Below, one piece after another: positions 35,012 to 59,405 of a stretch of 64,000 nucleotides of DNA. Both the position numbers and the translations under genes were made by a program. The DNA is from Nitrospirota bacterium (GTDB lineage: Bacteria; Nitrospirota; Nitrospiria; Nitrospirales; Nitrospiraceae). The notes below the pieces were generated by a model, which saw only the letters and a list, made by a program, of their open reading frames with translations, ran no database searches and was not told the origin of the DNA. Position 1 is the stretch's first letter; each line of letters starts with the position of its first letter. Location of the stretch: contig JAUXQT010000104.1 in the NCBI GenBank assembly GCA_030682135.1, positions 1 to 64,000 of the forward strand, in the 5' to 3' direction.

Positions 35012-36138
35012 CGGAAGGCCTCAGTGGTAGCCATCACTTCCGTGAGGCAAGCAGCAACTTGCGCGACCTGACCTGACGTCATCGTAGTAAAGAACGGGAG
35101 CGCAATTGTTCGATCACTGATGTGTTCGGTAACAGGGAAATCCCCTGTCTTAAAACCGAACTGCTCGACATAAAATGGCTGCAAATGAATGGGGGCGAAA
35201 TAGCTGTTACAGCCAATCCCGTTGTCTCGCAAAGCAAGAAGGATGCGATTCCGATCAGCGCGGGTAAAGCGATCCGCCAGCCGCACAACATAAACGAACC
35301 AGCTGAGGCGCCCTTGTCGCGGGCCCATAGGTAACAAGAGGTCAGCAAAATGGCCGAGTTGCTCACGGTACATATCGGCAACTGCGGCACGCTTTGCGAG
35401 GATCTCCTCGATCCTCGACAACTGAGCAAGCCCGAGGGCGCAGTGAATATCGCTCAGCCGATAATTGAACCCTAACCTCGCATGCTCCAGCCAGCCTTGA
35501 CCTTCGTCACGCCCCTGATTGCGCATGCTCCGGCAGAGAGCAGCCACATCGTCCCGATTGGTGAGGATCATTCCCCCCTCGCCCGTTGTCATTTGTTTAT
35601 TCGGATAAAAAGCCAGGCACCCTGCATCACCGAAAGATCCCGCCATCTTCCCAAAAGTCTCAGCACCGATGGCCTCGCATGAATCTTCGATCACGGCCAA
35701 CCCCCTGCGCTGGGCGATCTCACAGATACGATCCCACTCCGCACAACGGCCAAATACGTCCACGCCAAGAATCGCCTTTGTCCGTGGAGTAATGGCCGCT
35801 TCAACTTTATCAGGATCGATATTGTACGACTCAGGGTCGATATCGACGAACACCGGGCGCGCACTCTCCATCAACACACAGTTCGCCGAGGCAATGAAGC
35901 TGAATGGCGTAGTAATGACCTCGTCATTGCGCCCAATACCCAAGGCCCGCACGATAAGATGCAGCCCGCTGGTCCCACTATTTACCGCAATAGCATGCTT
36001 CACACCAATGTATTGTGCCATGGCCCGCTCGAACTCCGGCAGCTTTGGCCCCAGGCTGAGAAAATTCGATTCGAGCACATCCAGAACAGCCTTTCGCTCC
36101 AGCCAGGTCAAATCAGGCTGAGCTAGTGGTATTTTCAT
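35008..36138 (-). CDS. PglE-like DegT/DnrJ/EryC1 aminotransferase
   Basis: This PLP enzyme transfers an amino group to C4 of the UDP-4-keto-6-deoxy sugar. The 376-residue protein begins MKIPLAQPDLTW and contains AVNSGTSGLHL, IEDSCEAIGAET and the Schiff-base Lys in FYPNKQMTTGEGG (about residue 188). Length and motifs fit PglE/WbpE-type enzymes. The upstream open frame to 36195 would overlap the acetyltransferase gene and is rejected. It overlaps the dehydratase gene by 4 bp and is followed upstream by the acetyltransferase (4 bp gap). This fits a dehydrate-aminate-acetylate series. Confidence 0.92.
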   Translation of the reverse strand: MKIPLAQPDLTWLERKAVLDVLESNFLSLGPKLPEFERAMAQYIGVKHAIAVNSGTSGLHLIVRALGIGRNDEVITTPFSFIASANCVLMESARPVFVDIDPESYNIDPDKVEAAITPRTKAILGVDVFGRCAEWDRICEIAQRRGLAVIEDSCEAIGAETFGKMAGSFGDAGCLAFYPNKQMTTGEGGMILTNRDDVAALCRSMRNQGRDEGQGWLEHARLGFNYRLSDIHCALGLAQLSRIEEILAKRAAVADMYREQLGHFADLLLPMGPRQGRLSWFVYVVRLADRFTRADRNRILLALRDNGIGCNSYFAPIHLQPFYVEQFGFKTGDFPVTEHISDRTIALPFFTTMTSGQVAQVAACLTEVMATTEAFR

Positions 36139-47145: not shown

Positions 47146-49194
47146 TTATGCGGGTAACAGCTCTACCGCTGTCGAGGCGATAGTCTTCAGATTGTAGAAC
47201 AAATCCGACCTTGGGAAAATTGATTCAACCGCAACGAAATAGTACTCGTGATCTTCCAAATGAGCATTAGCCTTCGCGAATGAGGTCAACTTCTCTTCCT
47301 GCGATTTGCTCATCCCAAGCGCGACACTGCTATTCCTCGACACAAACTTATGAATTGGCTTGTGGAATTTGTCATCTCTCCAGGCCTTTAAATCAAAATT
47401 TGTCTTAAACGTCCCTCCAACAGGGCTGTTTTCTCGTAAATCTACGATCATCGCTTCTGAGATAGACAGGATCTCCGCAATCTCGGAATCGTTAATATCC
47501 TCCGGATGAGGAGCCATCGCAACAAGGATTCGAGTCAGGACATTGTTAACCCATCCACGCTCCGAGTACATCAGCCGGGAAAAATAGTATGGATTTAGCC
47601 GAACCGGCTCACCAACGTCGTTGTTGACTCTGTATATCCTCTCGACGTTTGCGCCGAGGGCACCCAAATCGTCATACAGCTCACTGATGCAGTTTTTCTT
47701 GAAGTCATTGACGAAGGCACGATATTCGTCAGGCCAGGCGACAGTGGGATCCGGGTTCATGAACGACTGAAAGAACGTGGCAAGAGGAATCCCCTTGCCC
47801 TTCACATACTGGAAGAAGAATTTATAGAACCCCCCCTGGAACACGGAAAAGAACATCAAATTCAGGCATCGTATTTTCACAAATTGTTCAAAGCTAAAGT
47901 ACCTATTTTCCGTGACAACTTTTTCGTACTCAAAAATAAGCTCGTTCCCGATCATCATGTAATTTGAACCGAGAAGCCTGAATTTGGACTTCATTCGATG
48001 AAGGATCCGCTCCATGTCCCTGTTCAACTCGACACCTTCCATCACGAATAGGTTGTGAAGCATGATCGAGTCGAAGCCCTGCTCAACACTCTTATTGAGC
48101 AAGTTAACCATCGAATCATAGGTCTCGTAAGGCAGTCCAAAGATGACTTCGGTGGTTACCGGAATCCGGTTCTGTTTTGCCCAGGCGATTCCTTCATTAA
48201 TATTGTCGTCAGAAAGATTTTTTCTCTTGATCGCCTTGAGTGTTTCCGGGTGATCAGACTGCAAACTGAATACCAACCCGTCTCTATTAATGTCGCCAAG
48301 CGCCTGAATGACTTTCTTTGAAGTTTCAGTAAACCGCTTATCGCTGTAAAAGTAGACGCTCTTTGGATAGCCGGTTTTCTCGGATACGGACTTTAAATAT
48401 GCTGCGAGCTCAGGGTCCTGCTCGTTGATGCCGAAATTAAGCTCCGCCAGATTTAACATGATATGCGGCCGGTCTTTGTTCCAGTGCGCGATGTAATCTA
48501 TTTCTTGTTTGACCTGATCCAACGGGAAAGCCCTCAGCTTGCTTCTGTCCTTCCCCGAAACACAGAACGTGCATTGATAGGGGCAGGTTCTGGTCGCCTG
48601 CAGTAATGGAAAGTACGACTGCTTAAGGAACTCGTCGAGATAACCCGTCAGGTAGGGAGACGGCACTTCGCTTAGATCCAGGTTTGTACTGGTATTAAAA
48701 CCTTTCACATATCCATCTGCTTTACTGAAGAACGAACAGTCTATTGGCGAATCGAAGATCGCTTGCCTTCCAGCCAGCGCTTTTCCCACCAAACTCGCGA
48801 AGCCCGCTTCACCCTCTCCTTCAACGAAGACATCTACTTCGGGAAACTTCTCGAGCAATTTCTGATGCTCTACTTCTATGCTGTCGACGGATGGGCCGCC
48901 AAATACCGTGACCACGTCATGCCCATACATCTGCCTCACTTTGTTCACGACATAGTAATTCAGGTTCTGATTCCAGTAATAGAACGAGAACCCGACGATG
49001 TCCGGTTTGTTATGCTCTAGATGTTCAAGCAATAACTCGACGTCTTTGAATATCGTAATATCCACTTCGCTGCCGAACAGCTTTTCAGTGTACGCGGCAA
49101 CATAGGCTACATTCAGTGGAACGCACAGCCTATTCTGGGTGAGCCTATTTACGTAGAACAAGTCCGCAAGGACAATTTTAAGTTTGGCGCTCAT
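47146..49194 (-). CDS. Radical SAM protein with B12-binding-type N-terminal domain
   Basis: The 682-residue protein has an N-terminal Rossmann-like domain of the cobalamin-binding type (NRLCVPLNVAYVAAYTEKLF, PDIVGFSFYYWN and TVFGGPSVD, about residues 20-110) but no DxHxxG cobalamin motif. The radical SAM core starts at TRTCPYQCTFCVSG (CxxxCxxC, about 204). A VFSLQSDHPETLKAI stretch and a long C-terminal part of ~330 residues with no domain I can name follow. Related proteins (HpnJ, BchE and peptide-modifying types) act as methylases, cyclases or sugar/peptide modifiers. A good ribosome site (AAGGAAAGGAA) precedes the ATG. It is more AT-rich than its neighbours, which suggests a different origin. 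Confidence 0.87.
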   Translation of the reverse strand: MSAKLKIVLADLFYVNRLTQNRLCVPLNVAYVAAYTEKLFGSEVDITIFKDVELLLEHLEHNKPDIVGFSFYYWNQNLNYYVVNKVRQMYGHDVVTVFGGPSVDSIEVEHQKLLEKFPEVDVFVEGEGEAGFASLVGKALAGRQAIFDSPIDCSFFSKADGYVKGFNTSTNLDLSEVPSPYLTGYLDEFLKQSYFPLLQATRTCPYQCTFCVSGKDRSKLRAFPLDQVKQEIDYIAHWNKDRPHIMLNLAELNFGINEQDPELAAYLKSVSEKTGYPKSVYFYSDKRFTETSKKVIQALGDINRDGLVFSLQSDHPETLKAIKRKNLSDDNINEGIAWAKQNRIPVTTEVIFGLPYETYDSMVNLLNKSVEQGFDSIMLHNLFVMEGVELNRDMERILHRMKSKFRLLGSNYMMIGNELIFEYEKVVTENRYFSFEQFVKIRCLNLMFFSVFQGGFYKFFFQYVKGKGIPLATFFQSFMNPDPTVAWPDEYRAFVNDFKKNCISELYDDLGALGANVERIYRVNNDVGEPVRLNPYYFSRLMYSERGWVNNVLTRILVAMAPHPEDINDSEIAEILSISEAMIVDLRENSPVGGTFKTNFDLKAWRDDKFHKPIHKFVSRNSSVALGMSKSQEEKLTSFAKANAHLEDHEYYFVAVESIFPRSDLFYNLKTIASTAVELLPA

Positions 49195-49628: not shown

Positions 49629-50393
49629 TCAGAGGACACGGCGAAGATAACAGGAGGGCCAGTACGTCACTCGTTCGGTAATTGATCCCTCGTTGAACAG
49701 AAATTGAGGTTCCTCGACTACAAACTGTTCGGTTTCACGCAGGAACTCGGCCGCTGCCTCAGCTGGGTTGTTCCAATTCCAATCCGGCTGAGACCTAGGC
49801 GCATTAACCAAGTCGCGCATGATCCCGTCGGTTGCCACAATGTATGAGTTCTGAGTAACGAATCCGGAGTAGGCTCTGAGCTCGGAGAGAACATGAGCCT
49901 TGCTGTGATTGGAATCAAGGATAACTAGAACGGTTTCATCTGGGTGGATCTGTTCCTTGACACGTGCAACCGTATCGGACGCAACCGAGCTGCCTTCGAT
50001 CAGGGTCATGAAAGACGATAACTCATGTGATTCAATAGCTTTCCTGTTATGCGGCCGTATCTCTACATCAACTCCAACCACACGCCCTCTTCCCATAGAC
50101 TTGAACAGGGAGGCGTAAAACACAAGCGATCCCCCATGCGCAACCCCGGTCTCAATCAACACATCGGGCTTGACCGAATAAATGACCTCCTGAATCCGCA
50201 GCATGTCCTCCGGAAGCTGAATTATCGGACGGCCGAGCCAGGTAAAGCTGTAGACGTACTTGCTGTCCCACCCACTACGTAGCCATGCCTTGGAGATCAA
50301 TTGAAACGCTTCGGGACTGCCGATCGTAAGTCTGCGAGTACCGGTTGCCGTTTCTTCTTCAACGGTGCCCGCTTCGAGGTCGATTTTTATCAC
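49629..50393 (-). CDS. CmcI-family methyltransferase/hydroxylase-like protein
   Basis: The 254-residue protein belongs to the cephalosporin hydroxylase (CmcI)/rhamnosyl O-methyltransferase group: PDVLIETGVAHGGSLVFYASL (SAM site, about 80), VVGVDVEIRPHNR, VLVILDSNHSKAHVLSEL (metal-binding Asp and His, about 157) and YIVATDGIM. Members O-methylate sugars. It begins at GTG 50393, overlapping the epimerase stop (GTGA). It is the last gene of the right-hand operon. Acting on the CDP-derived deoxy sugar, or on the sugar after transfer, would fit the neighbours. Confidence 0.82.
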   Translation of the reverse strand: MIKIDLEAGTVEEETATGTRRLTIGSPEAFQLISKAWLRSGWDSKYVYSFTWLGRPIIQLPEDMLRIQEVIYSVKPDVLIETGVAHGGSLVFYASLFKSMGRGRVVGVDVEIRPHNRKAIESHELSSFMTLIEGSSVASDTVARVKEQIHPDETVLVILDSNHSKAHVLSELRAYSGFVTQNSYIVATDGIMRDLVNAPRSQPDWNWNNPAEAAAEFLRETEQFVVEEPQFLFNEGSITERVTYWPSCYLRRVL

Positions 50394-51202
50394 GGTATGA
50401 CAGCCTTTCGTTCTTGAATCATCCGAGGCAACTCAGCCAATACGTCCTGCGCAGGTGAAAAGAACTCCTCCTCGATCCGGGTTATAGAAATCGGTGGGAA
50501 TGCGACCATCGGCGCACCAGGAACAACGGTCACTGTACACCCCGTAAGCTCAGCGATGCGCTCGACCAAGGCACGGTTCGATACGTTCGTCCCCGACGCC
50601 ACGTTATACAGCTGCTGCTTGCCGGACAAAGCGATTCGCGTCAGCAGCTCAAGCAAGTCGGGGACGGGAATATAGTCCTTCGCGGAGTCGAGGGATGTTC
50701 GAAGGGTGAGACATTTCGTCGTCAGTGCATCGCGCATGATTTCGCTCAGAAAGTTTTCACTCTCAGGCTCCGTGCTAAACACGTTTGACAACCTCGCGAC
50801 ACGGACATTCTGACGTCCACTAGCAAAACACAAGGCCTCGCCGGTGAGCTTTGTGAGGTTATAAAAGTCATCTGGGAAATTGGCGTTAACTCGGCAATCT
50901 GCGGACTCCTCCGTGCTCTTCGCACCCAAATAAACCCGGGTCGAAGAAAGATAGAGGAACGAGCCGAACGACGCCCGGCTCAACAGATCGGCGAGAACGG
51001 TTACGTGCGCCGCAATGGTCTCGAAAGGCTTACGGCGGAAATCCGCCGTCACCCCGATGCAATAGATCACCTGTCCAAGGTCCTGGGTGTAGATCCTGAG
51101 GTCATTGCGCTGAGGCGCGAACACTTCATGTCCTTGTTGCTCGAGAAAGCTGCAAAGACGCGACCCTACAAGCCCTGATGCACCGAGGACGGTAAATTTC
51201 AT
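50390..51202 (-). CDS. NAD-dependent epimerase/dehydratase family protein (predicted 4-ketoreductase)
   Basis: The 270-residue short SDR protein has the cofactor loop VLGASGLVGSRL at the N-terminus, YLSSTRVYLG (active-site Ser) and FYNLTKLTGEAL (YxxxK, about 125). The sequence stops earlier than normal extended SDRs. As the last reductive enzyme in a rfbF-rfbG-epimerase-methyltransferase row, it probably reduces the 4-keto group of the CDP-6-deoxy-3-C-methyl sugar. It overlaps the small 58-codon gene upstream by 4 bp (ATGA) and CmcI-like by 4 bp. ATG 51202 is used. Confidence 0.83.
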   Translation of the reverse strand: MKFTVLGASGLVGSRLCSFLEQQGHEVFAPQRNDLRIYTQDLGQVIYCIGVTADFRRKPFETIAAHVTVLADLLSRASFGSFLYLSSTRVYLGAKSTEESADCRVNANFPDDFYNLTKLTGEALCFASGRQNVRVARLSNVFSTEPESENFLSEIMRDALTTKCLTLRTSLDSAKDYIPVPDLLELLTRIALSGKQQLYNVASGTNVSNRALVERIAELTGCTVTVVPGAPMVAFPPISITRIEEEFFSPAQDVLAELPRMIQERKAVIP

Positions 51203-51375
51203 ACTCGAATACCGTCGCGTCCGAGACATTGCATCAGTGGCATCCTACCCGTCTCTTCAATGCGACCTATCCACTCGAAACATTTCTCGCTCGAGCCAAT
51301 ATCGACAGCTGTCATCGCGCAGTAGATCTCCAGATCGGACATCCAATGCTTGGTGCGATGCGCACGCGGTTTCAT
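51199..51375 (-). CDS. Small 58-codon gene between C-methyltransferase and ketoreductase
   Basis: The frame runs from ATG 51375 to TGA 51199. Its ATG overlaps the methyltransferase stop (ATGA) and its TGA overlaps the ketoreductase ATG (ATGA), the same coupling used by the neighbouring genes. The peptide begins MKPRAHRTKHWMSDLEIY, has three Cys (YCAM, EKCFEW, MQCLG) and ends GRDGIRV. It is soluble, with no signal peptide or membrane segment. I do not recognise it. It may be a small accessory protein for the sugar enzymes or the remnant of a larger gene. The exact double overlap is the main support. Confidence 0.55.
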   Translation of the reverse strand: MKPRAHRTKHWMSDLEIYCAMTAVDIGSSEKCFEWIGRIEETGRMPLMQCLGRDGIRV

Positions 51376-52595
51376 GCGATCTCCAGCTTGGGCACTGCCG
51401 TAACAAACTTCGTTCCAAGCTCCGACAGCCGCGCATTCTGTTGCCTAACCTCAGCTGCAATATTCCAGGGCAGAATTATCAGATAATCAGGGCGCTGCTC
51501 GTCGAGGAACGCAGGAGGCAGGATGGGAATATGACTCCCTGGCATAAATTTTCCCTGCTTCGAGGAAGCCGCGTCACAAACGAATGGCAGCAGGTCTGGC
51601 TTCACACCGGCGTAATTAAGCAGCGTATTCCCCTTGGCTGCCGCGCCATAGGCCGCCACCTTCCTTCCTGCCCGCTTTGCTTCGATCAGGAAAGCCAAGA
51701 GATCGTCCTTAATTCGATTGGCCTGAACCTGGAAATTGCGATAGGTCGCCATGTCCTGCAAGCCACACCTCGCTTCTGCTCCTAGCAATACACTTACCGC
51801 TGATGAGGCAGTACGAATATCTTCCACATGACATCCGTAAATGCGTAAGCTGCCGCCATGGGTAGCTAGTTCTTCCACATCCCAGATTCGTAGGCCGGCT
51901 GCACCAAAGATATGCGTTACCGTGGATAGCGAGAGATAAGAAAAATGCTCGTGATATACCGTGTCGAACTGCGTGTACTCGATCAATCGCATCAGATGCG
52001 GGAATTCCAGGGTGATGGTGCCGCCAGGCTTGAGCGCAGCTTTGAGTCCCCTGGTAAAATCATTGATGTCGGGCACATGAGCATAGACGTTGTTGCCGGC
52101 AATCAGATTGGCTTGCCGACCCTGTGCGGCCAATTGTCTGCCAAAGTCTTCATCAAAGAACTTTCGGATGACAGGGATACCGAGTTTTTCAGCTGCAGCG
52201 GCAGTGCTAGCGGTCGGTTCGATACCGAGGCAAGGAATCCCGGCCGCCAGGAAATTCTTGAGCAGGTAACCGTCGTTGGCGGCGATTTCAATAACCAGGC
52301 TTTCGCGCGTGAGCTTTAGCCGGTCGGTGATTTCCTTCGCATAGTGCGCTGCATGAGCGAGCCAGCCAGTCGAGGTACTGGAGAAGTAGGCGTAATCGGA
52401 ACTGAACAGTTCGTCGGCCTGCGCGAAGTCCTCAGTCTGGACCAGCCAACACTTCTCGCAGATCCTAAGCCGCAGGGGATAGTATTTTTCCGGCTTGGCT
52501 AAATCATCTACCGTCAAATAGGCATTCGACGGCGGCGCAAAACCCAAATCAAGAAAACCCTGTCGGAGCGGAGTGTCGCAATGGCGACATTTCAT
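51372..52595 (-). CDS. NDP-hexose C-methyltransferase (TylC3/NovU-like)
   Basis: The 407-residue SAM enzyme adds a methyl to a sugar carbon. It has an N-terminal zinc domain with CRHCDTPL and CEKCWLVQ (about residues 3-52), a class I methyltransferase core with VIEIAANDGYLL (about 101) and NVYAHVPDINDF, and a C-terminal domain with AAYGAAAKGNTLLNY. That order is the Methyltransf_13 / 23 / 14 set of sugar 3-C-methyltransferases, and YHEHFSY carries the His-Glu-His catalytic residues. The context (CDP-4-keto-6-deoxyglucose made upstream) suggests C3 methylation. It is linked by 4-bp overlaps to its neighbours. Confidence 0.9.
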   Translation of the reverse strand: MKCRHCDTPLRQGFLDLGFAPPSNAYLTVDDLAKPEKYYPLRLRICEKCWLVQTEDFAQADELFSSDYAYFSSTSTGWLAHAAHYAKEITDRLKLTRESLVIEIAANDGYLLKNFLAAGIPCLGIEPTASTAAAAEKLGIPVIRKFFDEDFGRQLAAQGRQANLIAGNNVYAHVPDINDFTRGLKAALKPGGTITLEFPHLMRLIEYTQFDTVYHEHFSYLSLSTVTHIFGAAGLRIWDVEELATHGGSLRIYGCHVEDIRTASSAVSVLLGAEARCGLQDMATYRNFQVQANRIKDDLLAFLIEAKRAGRKVAAYGAAAKGNTLLNYAGVKPDLLPFVCDAASSKQGKFMPGSHIPILPPAFLDEQRPDYLIILPWNIAAEVRQQNARLSELGTKFVTAVPKLEIA

Positions 52596-53152
52596 AACTT
52601 TATTCCTGTAAACTCTTTCCTCAGCATCGGATGTCTTACGTCTCTCGGCGAAAGTTCCACAATCGCAAGTGGCCAGTTGATGGAAAGTGCGGGATCCCTC
52701 GGACTGAGGCCGCCCTCGGCGCCAGTCACGTAGGCAGCCGAGTGCAGGTACAGCAGCTCGCAGTCATTGGACAATGTCTGAAAGCCATGGGCAAATCCTT
52801 CCGGTATCAACAACGCGCGATGATTGGCTGCGGAGAGTTCTTCGGCATGCCACTGCAGAAATGTCGGCGAGCCGTCACGCAGATCTACAGCCACATCCCA
52901 GACTGCCCCGCGCAGGCAAGTTACCAGTTTCATTTCGGCATATGGCTGGGTCTGATAATGCATGCCGCGCACTGTTCCTTGCAATTGAGTGAGTGTGTGG
53001 TTGATCTGAACGATTGGCTTGAACCAACCGGCAGCCGCCAGTTCGTCACTGCAGAACAGGCGCGAGAGAAAGCCCCGCGAGTCGACCAGTTGCTGGCGCT
53101 CGATGAGCTTGAGCCCCTCAATGGGCATGTCCTTGATGGTGAAGCGCCCCAT
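52592..53152 (-). CDS. NDP-4-keto-6-deoxyhexose 3,5-epimerase (RfbC family)
   Basis: The 186-residue cupin-fold epimerase has the catalytic His in GTVRGMHYQ (about 67) and PEGFAHGFQTL (about 117), the RfbC signature. DSRGFLSRLFC is the usual N-terminal motif. The usual substrate is dTDP-linked, but here the neighbours make a CDP sugar, so it likely acts on CDP-4-keto-6-deoxyglucose. ATG 53152 is preceded by AGGAAG; a TTG at 53161 overlapping the upstream stop is a possible start. The stop overlaps the methyltransferase ATG (ATGA). Confidence 0.9.
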   Translation of the reverse strand: MGRFTIKDMPIEGLKLIERQQLVDSRGFLSRLFCSDELAAAGWFKPIVQINHTLTQLQGTVRGMHYQTQPYAEMKLVTCLRGAVWDVAVDLRDGSPTFLQWHAEELSAANHRALLIPEGFAHGFQTLSNDCELLYLHSAAYVTGAEGGLSPRDPALSINWPLAIVELSPRDVRHPMLRKEFTGIKL

Positions 53153-53157
53153 GCTGT

Positions 53158-54234
53158 TCAACTTCCTGATGCCCCTTCGTAGGCTACGATGTCTGCCTCG
53201 CAGGCTGCACTCGCATCAACGCCATCGAGTTGCTGACGGTACCAATGCATCGTGCGCTGAATAGACCCATGCAATGCCCAGCGCGGTATGACGCCAAGTT
53301 TCGCGCGAGCTTTCGAAACCTCGAGGGCCAGCCAGCTGGCCTCGTGCGGGCCTTCGCTGCCGTTACCCCAGATGACATCACCCTTACCGTAGAAAGCCTG
53401 TGCAAGTTGCACCACCTCACGGACGGTTGCAGCATGGTGAGTTTCCGGCCCGAAGTTATAGGCACCCGCTAATGCCGGTTGTCGCCACAGCGTTTCAGCA
53501 AGCTGGATATACGCGGCAAGTGGCTCCAGGACGTGCTGCCAGGGGCGGATTGCCTCCGGACGGCGAACGACCAGCGGCTGAGCGACGCTCCAGGCACGAA
53601 CAGCGTCGGGAATAAGGCGGTCTTCAGACCAATCACCGCCACCTATGACATTGCCTGCACGCGCGGAGGCGAGGGCGACGCCCCTCCCGGCAAAGTAGGC
53701 ATCCCGGTAACTGGCGATGACGATTTCCGCCGCAGCCTTGCTGGCGCTGTACGGGTCATGCCCGCCCAACGCATCGGATTCGCGATAGGGAGAGGGCTGT
53801 TCAAGGTTCTTGTAGACCTTGTCGCTGGTAACAGCGACGACGGCCCTGACCGAATCGAGAGAGCGCAGCGCATCGAGTACATTAGCCGTGCCTTGGATGT
53901 TGGTGGCAAAGGTCGCAAGCGGCTCACGATAGCTAGCCCGAACCAGTGGCTGAGCTGCCAGGTGAAAAACGATTTCCGGCTGGCAAAGACTTATCAACGC
54001 AGCAACCTTGGCCGCATCGCGAATGTCGCAGAAATTACTTTGGCCAAGAGTCTCGATCTTTGCGAGCGTGAAGAGGTTCGGCCTCGTGACAGGCGGCAGG
54101 CTGACACCTGTCACCTCGGCTCCAAGCCGGTGCAACCAGAAGGCCAGCCAGGCACCTTTAAATCCCGTATGGCCGGTCAGCAGTACGCGTTTACCTCTCC
54201 AGAAACCAGCGCTGGGATTGAGGAATGTACTCAT
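53158..54234 (-). CDS. rfbG: CDP-glucose 4,6-dehydratase
   Basis: The enzyme makes CDP-4-keto-6-deoxyglucose. The 358-residue SDR protein has [19 protein letters not shown] (RfbG/AscB-type cofactor loop), the TDKxY-type VTSDKVYKN (active-site Thr/Ser) and [11 protein letters not shown] with YxxxK (about 157). [17 protein letters not shown] is diagnostic for this family. ATG 54234 overlaps the rfbF stop (ATGA), so the two steps are coupled. It is followed by a 3,5-epimerase and a C-methyltransferase rather than the rfbH dehydratase of the usual dideoxy-sugar pathway. Confidence 0.94.
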
Positions 54235-55004
54235 TCCCAGATCTTCCATGGCGCCCTGCCGGAGGCCCACAAGTCTTCCAGCAGGTTTTTTTCACGCAAC
54301 GTGTCCATCGGCTGCCAAAAACCCTTGTGCTCAAGAGCCATCAACTGTCCCCTCGATGCAAGCTGGCTCATGGGCACGCCTTCCCAGGCACTGTGGTCCC
54401 CTTCAATGAGCTCGATGCATTTCGGTGAAAGGACAAAAAAACCACCGTTGATAAGTCCACCGTCGCCACGCGGTTTTTCGGTGAATCCCATCACTTGATC
54501 ACCGGACCGCTCCAGCGCACCGTAACGCCCGGGAGGCTGAACTGCGGTGACCGTGGCAAGCTTTCCATGACGGCGATGAAATTCAATGGAAGATCCAATA
54601 TCGACGTCGCTGAGCCCATCCCCATAGGTGAAACAAAAACAGTCCTCGTCCTTTATATGGTCCACAACGCGCCTGAGTCTTCCGCCGGTTAACGTGTCAT
54701 CCCCGGTATCGACGAGGGTCACCCTCCAGGGTTCGGCTTTGCGCTGATGGACTTTCATCTCATTGTTCACCATGTCGAAGGTCACATCCGACATGTGCAG
54801 GAAATAGTTGGCAAAGTATTCCTTGATGATGTAGCCCTTATACCCACAGCAGATGACAAAGTCGTGAATACCGTGAGCCGAGTACATTTTCATGATGTGC
54901 CAGAGGATCGGTTTCCCCCCGATCTCGACCATAGGTTTGGGCTTGAGGTGTGTCTCCTCAGCGATGCGGGTACCAAGTCCACCGGCAAGAATGACGGCCT
55001 TCAT
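54231..55004 (-). CDS. rfbF: Glucose-1-phosphate cytidylyltransferase
   Basis: The enzyme joins glucose-1-phosphate and CTP to give CDP-glucose. The 257-residue length is that of Salmonella RfbF. Motifs: [43 protein letters not shown] (metal) and [10 protein letters not shown]. The start is ATG 55004; GTG 55010 two codons earlier is possible. It opens the CDP-sugar branch inside a larger operon, 39 bp after the preceding gene. A C-terminal [19 protein letters not shown] is well conserved in this family. Confidence 0.95.
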
Positions 55005-55043
55005 TTTCACGCGCCACCACCCATCTGCCCATTGGGCTGATCG

Positions 55044-58116: not shown

Positions 58117-59405
58117 CGCAGAGCCTCCAAGCTATTCCACACCTTGCGAAACGCCTCGACAATCAGGTCGACATCCTCGTCGGCGAATTCATGCATGCAT
58201 ATTCCCAGGGCAAGATAGCTGGAATCATGTAGTCCCTCTGCGACCGGACATATCCCCTTGCGGTAATTTACCTCTCGGTGGCAGATATCTGAGGTCCAGG
58301 GGAACCCCGAGGAACCATACGCTATTTTCTTCTGGTACATCGGCAAAAGATGAATATTCTGATAACAGGCCCCGAGACCCAGTATCCCTTCGGCAACGAG
58401 CGCCTGGTGGATTCTGACCCGACTGATGCCCGTCTGTTCGGGATCGTAAACCATGGGGTACACATAATAGGCATGCGAGCAGTCAGGTTTAACGACAGGA
58501 GTACGTAACCCCTTCAAACCATTTAGGCCACAACTCAGCCGCTCTGCCGCCCGCTGCCTGGTAGCCACCAGGCCCTTGAGTTTCTTCAGTTGCTCGATTC
58601 CAATTGCGCTTTCAATTTCACCGAGACGAAAATTATAGCCCACCATATTGCTCAGGTCGGTAACACCCTTGTCGCCGACAACCGCCTCAGCATGATTACG
58701 AATTAGTCTCATCCTCTCAGCGAGCACATCATCATCGGTCACCATGATGCCACCCTCGCCGGTGTGGATGTGCTTGTGGTAATTGAGGCTGTACCCGCCG
58801 ATATCCGCGAGTGTTCCGGCAAATTTGCCTTTGTACATGGCACCCGGAGATTGGGCAGTATCGGAAATAAGCTTAAGTCCGTGCTTCCGTGCAATCACCT
58901 TTAAGGCATCGATATCGGCGGAATGACCGCAAATGTCGACCGCCATGATCGCTTTGGTATATGGCGTAACGTTGGCCTCGACCGACTTCGGATCAAGGCA
59001 AAACGTTTCTGGTTCGATGTCGGCAAATACAGGAATAGCGTTCCAGTGGAGAATGGCCGTCGCGCTGGCGGACATCGTCCAGGGACTGACGATGACCTCG
59101 TCGCCGGGTTCGATGCCGATGGCGCCCACCGCGGCAATCAGGCCGGAGGTCAAGGAGTTCACGGTCACAGCATGTTTGACGCCAAAATAGGCTTCGCAGT
59201 TCCGTTCGAATTCCTGGACTTTGGGGCCGCCATAGAAGTCAGGATCCCAGCAGCCGAGAAATTGCGACAACAGGCCGCCTTCGACGACTTTCCTGGCAGC
59301 CTCAACCTCTTCCGCGCCGATCGGGTTGTAGCGCGTGAACTGTTTTTGGATTGTTTTCGGCCCGCCCAAGAGAGCGAGAGGCTCTGTCGACGTGTTCTTG
59401 CTCAT
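58113..59405 (-). CDS. DegT/DnrJ/EryC1-family aminotransferase
   Basis: The 430-residue PLP enzyme is longer than PglE-like enzymes. Motifs: TVNSLTSGLIAAVGA, VSPWTMSASATAI, ISDTAQSPGAMYKG and the Schiff-base Lys in LNYHKHIHTGEGG (about 210). It probably transfers an amino group to a keto sugar produced by the Gfo/Idh-type oxidoreductase encoded upstream. The next gene (GNAT) would then acetylate the amine. The likely substrate is a nucleotide- or free sugar in the acidic-sugar branch. Overlaps on both sides are 4 bp. Confidence 0.88.
   Translation of the reverse strand: MSKNTSTEPLALLGGPKTIQKQFTRYNPIGAEEVEAARKVVEGGLLSQFLGCWDPDFYGGPKVQEFERNCEAYFGVKHAVTVNSLTSGLIAAVGAIGIEPGDEVIVSPWTMSASATAILHWNAIPVFADIEPETFCLDPKSVEANVTPYTKAIMAVDICGHSADIDALKVIARKHGLKLISDTAQSPGAMYKGKFAGTLADIGGYSLNYHKHIHTGEGGIMVTDDDVLAERMRLIRNHAEAVVGDKGVTDLSNMVGYNFRLGEIESAIGIEQLKKLKGLVATRQRAAERLSCGLNGLKGLRTPVVKPDCSHAYYVYPMVYDPEQTGISRVRIHQALVAEGILGLGACYQNIHLLPMYQKKIAYGSSGFPWTSDICHREVNYRKGICPVAEGLHDSSYLALGICMHEFADEDVDLIVEAFRKVWNSLEALR

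Follow-up and report, generated by a model that had tools for sequence, protein, structure and literature searches.

In the O-antigen clusters of Salmonella and Yersinia, abe and prt-tyv stand as alternative final-step genes after ddhDABC, and for Salmonella both the exchange of this final step behind a shared CDP-sugar core and the accompanying gene remnants have been described (PMC3715488). For CDP-3-C-methyl sugar pathways, our literature search gave nothing directly useful. With regard to how neighboring genes are translated, experiments on other gene pairs have revealed that overlapping genes are strictly coupled (PMC6728339). Gaps of ~20 nt nearly abolish such coupling in E. coli and Haloferax, and 15 nt of the upstream gene are enough for it (PMC10666635). 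We consider here a CDP-sugar operon from a Nitrospirota bacterium, in a 64,000-nt stretch of contig JAUXQT010000104.1 (the window). Between two of its sugar genes lies a 58-codon open frame that is very probably the remnant of an aminotransferase gene, and it most likely marks the place at which two operon lineages were joined.

All of the genes concerned lie on the minus strand. Read in that direction, they are a glucose-1-phosphate cytidylyltransferase-like gene (rfbF, 54231..55010), a CDP-glucose 4,6-dehydratase-like gene (rfbG, 53158..54234, its likely start being the ATG at 54234, in an ATGA overlap with the rfbF stop), a dTDP-4-dehydrorhamnose 3,5-epimerase-like gene (EPI, 52592..53161), a TylC3-like sugar C-methyltransferase (CMT, 51372..52595, assigned by Methyltransf_13/_14 and the CMT tree), the 58-codon frame (51199..51375), an NAD-dependent epimerase/dehydratase-family ketoreductase (SDR, 50390..51202, assigned by Pfam Epimerase and alignment), and a CmcI/rhamnosyl O-methyltransferase-like gene (CmcI, 49629..50393, RMNT_CmcI), which the CmcI tree places in a lineage other than that of the CMT. 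Beside the operon, at 47146-49194, there is a B12-binding radical SAM gene, possibly for a further sugar or lipid modification step.

The frame runs from an ATG at 51375 to a TGA at 51199 and encodes 58 residues, MKPRAHRTKHWMSDLEIYCAMTAVDIGSSEKCFEWIGRIEETGRMPLMQCLGRDGIRV. Just as the initial annotation had it, the peptide contains three Cys and no known motif, scans against Pfam, NCBIfam, and PHROGs giving nothing useful. Its ATG shares an ATGA with the CMT stop (GCATGA), its TGA shares another with the SDR start (GTATGA), and without it a strict gap of 169 nt would separate the two neighbors. The same kind of junction does recur through the operon, as had been claimed for most of its genes, with -4 overlaps at rfbF/rfbG, EPI/CMT, and SDR/CmcI (GTGA), and a TTGA at rfbG/EPI. 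It had also been argued that a chance frame would hardly be expected to meet both neighbors exactly. The overlaps themselves are as described, but chance alone is not so very small: in simulated random spacers of similar composition, with ATGA fixed at both ends, the right register is open in ~2-4%, and so the double overlap taken alone is a hint, modest evidence and no proof.

The identity of the frame emerges from codons 1-43 (51247..51375, minus strand; the homology may reach codon 47), which match the N-terminus of aminotransferases (ATs) of the DegT/DnrJ/EryC1 type. Against a profile built from seven AT N-termini, the window sequence being left out, the frame scores 21.6 bits, higher than any other of the 1,729 six-frame segments in the window; the runner-up, at 10.6 bits, lies inside another DegT gene of the window, and the top score among 2,000 shuffles of the peptide is 6.8 bits. 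The match is colinear from the start codon, with 33-36% identity to intact ATs and no indels across the 43 codons, and the weak tblastn matches to residues 1-44 are the starts of ATs directly behind a CMT. The rest of the gene, about 325 codons, or ~88%, is missing, including the PLP lysine region. A full-length AT is a PLP enzyme of ~370 residues, with a conserved lysine motif region (SFHGTKTLTTGEGG in relatives); the frame is left with 43-47 AT-like codons, in which most of the invariant AT positions are altered. Because the nearest solved relatives of the AT are perosamine synthetases (PDB 3bn1, 3dr4, 3dr7), the ancestor was likely, by family, a 4-aminotransferase of a nucleotide 4-keto sugar. 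The window's genome gave no second AT from this subfamily. Two further DegT-type aminotransferases of other subfamilies lie in the window at 35032-36036 and 58323-59219, and thus other amino sugars are probably made nearby.

The position of the frame is that of an AT in related operons. A profile search of genome contigs, using an SDR alignment, yielded 80 relatives' loci, where the single SDR as query had found no relative. By tblastn, ATs behind a CMT were found in G048, a genome from the same order, and in Peteryoungia, on a plasmid. The Peteryoungia genes run rfbF-rfbG-EPI-CMT-AT-acetyltransferase-CmcI, with -4 overlaps from rfbF through the AT, and the AT opens with the ATGA that the window's frame uses. 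Among the loci, the ATGA CMT/AT junction is seen in L010 and, as a remnant, in L094, and the AT adjoins the CMT in L116. In G435 and G497, the two genes form, in place of the ATGA overlap seen elsewhere, a single 782-codon frame (L154:5902-8250, L155:1584-3932), a fusion that underlines their close association. No close relative was found that retains an AT between the counterparts of precisely this CMT and this SDR. Other arrangements were met among these loci. In three from the window genome's family (L117, L118, and L119, from G168, G184, and G115), rfbF is followed by an AT with an N-terminal extension of ~60 codons whose own first residues repeat the AT start motif (MTARVRYLKPS...), resembling an internal duplication. 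On pSymB of S. meliloti AK57 (L011:5437-6840 and L011:7985-9212), acyltransferase and SDR are one 467-codon frame, and the CMT looks frameshifted.

There are two cases here in which the AT has apparently been lost and a 5' piece of it stays after the CMT: the window and L094, an uncultured Burkholderiales (CAIWAO010000164.1), the one locus of the 80 with such a remnant. Here, too, an SDR module follows, in the order acyltransferase-SDR-CmcI, but the end points differ: the L094 remnant is longer, an 83-codon AT 5' piece ending in TAG; it is followed by a second short AT start (MPKLIDCTKPLITELEV...) with only ~18 AT-like codons (the two together at L094:5047-5450), directly before the start of an acyltransferase that is still intact ahead of the SDR. 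When samples of the order (231 genomes) and of the phylum (395 genomes) were searched for truncated AT N-termini, the matches listed all belonged to long frames (at least 331 aa), which makes a conserved stand-alone gene unlikely and suggests that such remnants are rare; this search misses remnants as decayed as the window's, whose own genome gave no match.

The genes on either side of the frame have different affinities. In the CMT tree, the window's gene belongs to a 14-member clade (support 100/99), which also contains 3 of the 4 rows of AT or AT-remnant type, together with acyltransferase/SDR types. Eleven loci have a CMT at least 60% identical to the window's, and in these the CmcI is only 35-40% identical; conversely, at the 18 loci where the CmcI is at least 55% identical, the CMT is 39-54% identical. 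A 100/100 branch of the CmcI tree parts the window's CmcI from that of every locus in the former group, with 0 of the 11 on the window's side. Given these conflicting clades, the operon is a mosaic that joins the core of one lineage to the tail of another. The two nearest rows to the window's SDR in the SDR tree have a CmcI of the window's type, but that tree does not resolve the origin of the SDR, so that phylogeny locates the join no more closely than somewhere from CMT to CmcI. Since the frame begins as an AT, it is where the join would naturally fall, and it most likely marks it.

A possible source can be named for the last 11 codons of the frame and its stop (MQCLGRDGIRV; 51199..51234, minus strand). 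In most relatives, the SDR is preceded by a hexapeptide acyltransferase with the C-terminal motif GNPLRxxGxRx, whose stop often overlaps the SDR start; the window's frame ends in QCLGRDGIRV at the same stop/start overlap. In an anchored profile test, 44 of 1,994 segments, and 335 of 20,000 shuffles, scored at least as high as these 10 residues against the acyltransferase C-terminus (p ~0.02), which is suggestive of an acyltransferase 3' end. The C-terminus of the AT itself was considered as a source as well, and by eye, unscored, it bears no convincing likeness.

From homology, position, mosaicism, and relaxed constraint (below), we infer the following order of events. The ancestral operon would have read rfbF-rfbG-EPI-CMT-AT, with AT start and CMT stop sharing an ATGA, as they do in Peteryoungia and L094. 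Its distal amino-sugar genes would then have been replaced by a ketoreductase(-CmcI) module, the AT being cut after ~43-47 codons and its stump fused to what lay immediately before the ketoreductase, possibly the final codons of an acyltransferase. Of the two overlaps, the one at the start would thereby come from the AT and the one at the stop from the sequence that formerly lay ahead of the ketoreductase, and the peptide would have drifted since the join. The frame may have been kept open because ribosomes that terminate in it reinitiate on the ketoreductase, whose own Shine-Dalgarno sequence is not a strong one. What speaks against a remnant is the AT identity of only 33-36%, over 43 codons; what speaks for it is an N-terminal homology that runs colinearly from the first codon, an operon position shared with ATs, and relaxed constraint.

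This last property bears directly on the idea that the frame is a real small-protein gene, conserved for a peptide that acts together with the CDP-sugar enzymes or regulates them. The frame is open, coupled at both ends, furnished with a good ribosome site (-6.4), and free of indels relative to the ATs over 43 codons, all of which a true gene would explain. The initial annotation, which had offered such a small partner as one reading, had proposed looking in related genomes for the same small frame between CMT and SDR and comparing synonymous with non-synonymous change; the search of relatives and a comparison with ATs speak against it. No stand-alone homologue of the 58-residue protein was found in plasmids, phages, viral contigs, or 60 relatives, a partial sampling of genomes; the viral contigs gave no match and the phages one chance hit, and the AT N-termini listed from the order and phylum belong, as noted, to long frames. 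Between the frame and ATs, pN is 0.39-0.46 and pN/pS 0.49-0.62, a rough measure since synonymous sites are saturated, as against mostly 0.1-0.35 among the ATs themselves (0.45 for one pair involving the L094 remnant). With Peteryoungia and G048 as references, and under the same saturation, the window branch shows roughly 3.6 times (3-4 times) the non-synonymous change of intact ATs, and most of the positions invariant in ATs are among those changed. The constraint on the frame thus appears relaxed relative to that on ATs, and aminotransferase function is gone. A single-sequence AlphaFold2 model, with two helices and a mean pLDDT of 56.5, says little and is weak evidence in the same direction. 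A gene kept for its peptide is accordingly very improbable: the feature is real, the claim of a previously unlisted new gene is wrong, and the remnant also considered in the initial annotation is right. There are two further rival explanations. A chance open frame in the 169-nt spacer would need no more than the ~2-4% of random spacers given above, but it would leave unexplained a specific, colinear match to the very gene expected at that position, and we regard it as highly improbable. An assembly mis-join that skips a real aminotransferase gene might be thought of in a genome of 113 contigs; it would hardly yield a piece 33-36% identical to ATs, with most of their invariant residues lost, next to a CMT that is 61-74% identical to those of relatives, and its probability is close to negligible. 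That the remnant is far more diverged than the flanking CMT and has lost invariant residues indicates, rather, that the truncation is old.

A different question, which refines the remnant explanation and does not compete with it, is whether the open frame, as opposed to its sequence, has been maintained by selection as a translational bridge. The frame's ATG lies within the CMT stop and has a GGAG site with a Shine-Dalgarno energy of -6.4, which makes translation into the frame likely; it is probably translated, with the peptide as a by-product. At the SDR start, the energy is only -3.6 against a background median of -2.7. A further in-frame ATG at 51229, at -5.5, could also start the SDR, but its homologues begin at the equivalent of 51202 (MKFTV...), which is therefore the likely start. 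In view of the results with overlaps, ~20-nt gaps, and 15 nt of upstream gene in other pairs, a frame that bridges the 169 nt, with overlapping stop and start at both ends as is found here, could serve translation of the SDR, and a bridge role toward the ketoreductase is plausible. In favor of active upkeep one may cite the -4 overlaps used by the genes of this stretch, the near-background site of the SDR, the break in coupling that 169 nt would otherwise cause (PMC6728339, PMC10666635), and a frame still open and indel-free after many substitutions. How telling this last point is hinges on the indel rate put into the simulation. With 5% of events as indels, 1-10% of neutral frames remain open at 30-60 substitutions; without indels 27-41% do, so that open neutral frames are then not rare and upkeep stays a hypothesis. 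Moreover, the frame is known from one genome only, and the remnant in L094 is interrupted by TAG. Selective maintenance is thus a reading we entertain, while thinking it somewhat improbable, and of the earlier suggestion of a remnant kept to carry translation across, the remnant stands on its AT homology and the keeping is possible only. More tentative still, and on the doubtful side, is the general form of this idea, in which the start of a dead gene persists as a pure translational relay, the frame and both ATGA overlaps being selected and the peptide left free to drift, such that the swapped-in module does not lose its coupling to the original core of the operon. Were this true, the window would present a clear case of a gene remnant retained for translation alone, and the CMT/AT boundary would be a recurrent point of exchange, between amino and hydroxy sugars, that leaves such relays behind.

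On the remnant explanation, what looked like a new small gene becomes a scar that records a change in the final step of a CDP-sugar operon, probably from aminotransferase to ketoreductase, with the overlaps retained. It also carries a caution: ATGA overlaps at both ends say little in favor of a functional small protein, because an inherited start and an inherited stop can together produce them. Set beside the DegT/DnrJ/EryC1/StrS aminotransferases (PF01041), the frame is homologous over codons 1-43/47 and occupies the same slot after a TylC3-like CMT, which it likewise overlaps by ATGA, but it is without ~88% of the gene and most of the invariant residues. With the systems in which termination-reinitiation at ATGA overlaps has been studied (PMC6728339, PMC10666635), it shares -4 overlaps at both of its ends and through the operon; it differs in that the upstream frame is a gene remnant and the coupling putative. 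Finally, with the Salmonella and Yersinia O-antigen clusters the window has in common a conserved nucleotide-sugar core, an exchangeable final-step module, and gene remnants. Judged by its gene content, it is a case of the same kind as the final-step exchange of Salmonella, between other enzyme types: in another bacterial group, a 4-aminotransferase-like module would have been exchanged for a ketoreductase module after a C-methyltransferase.
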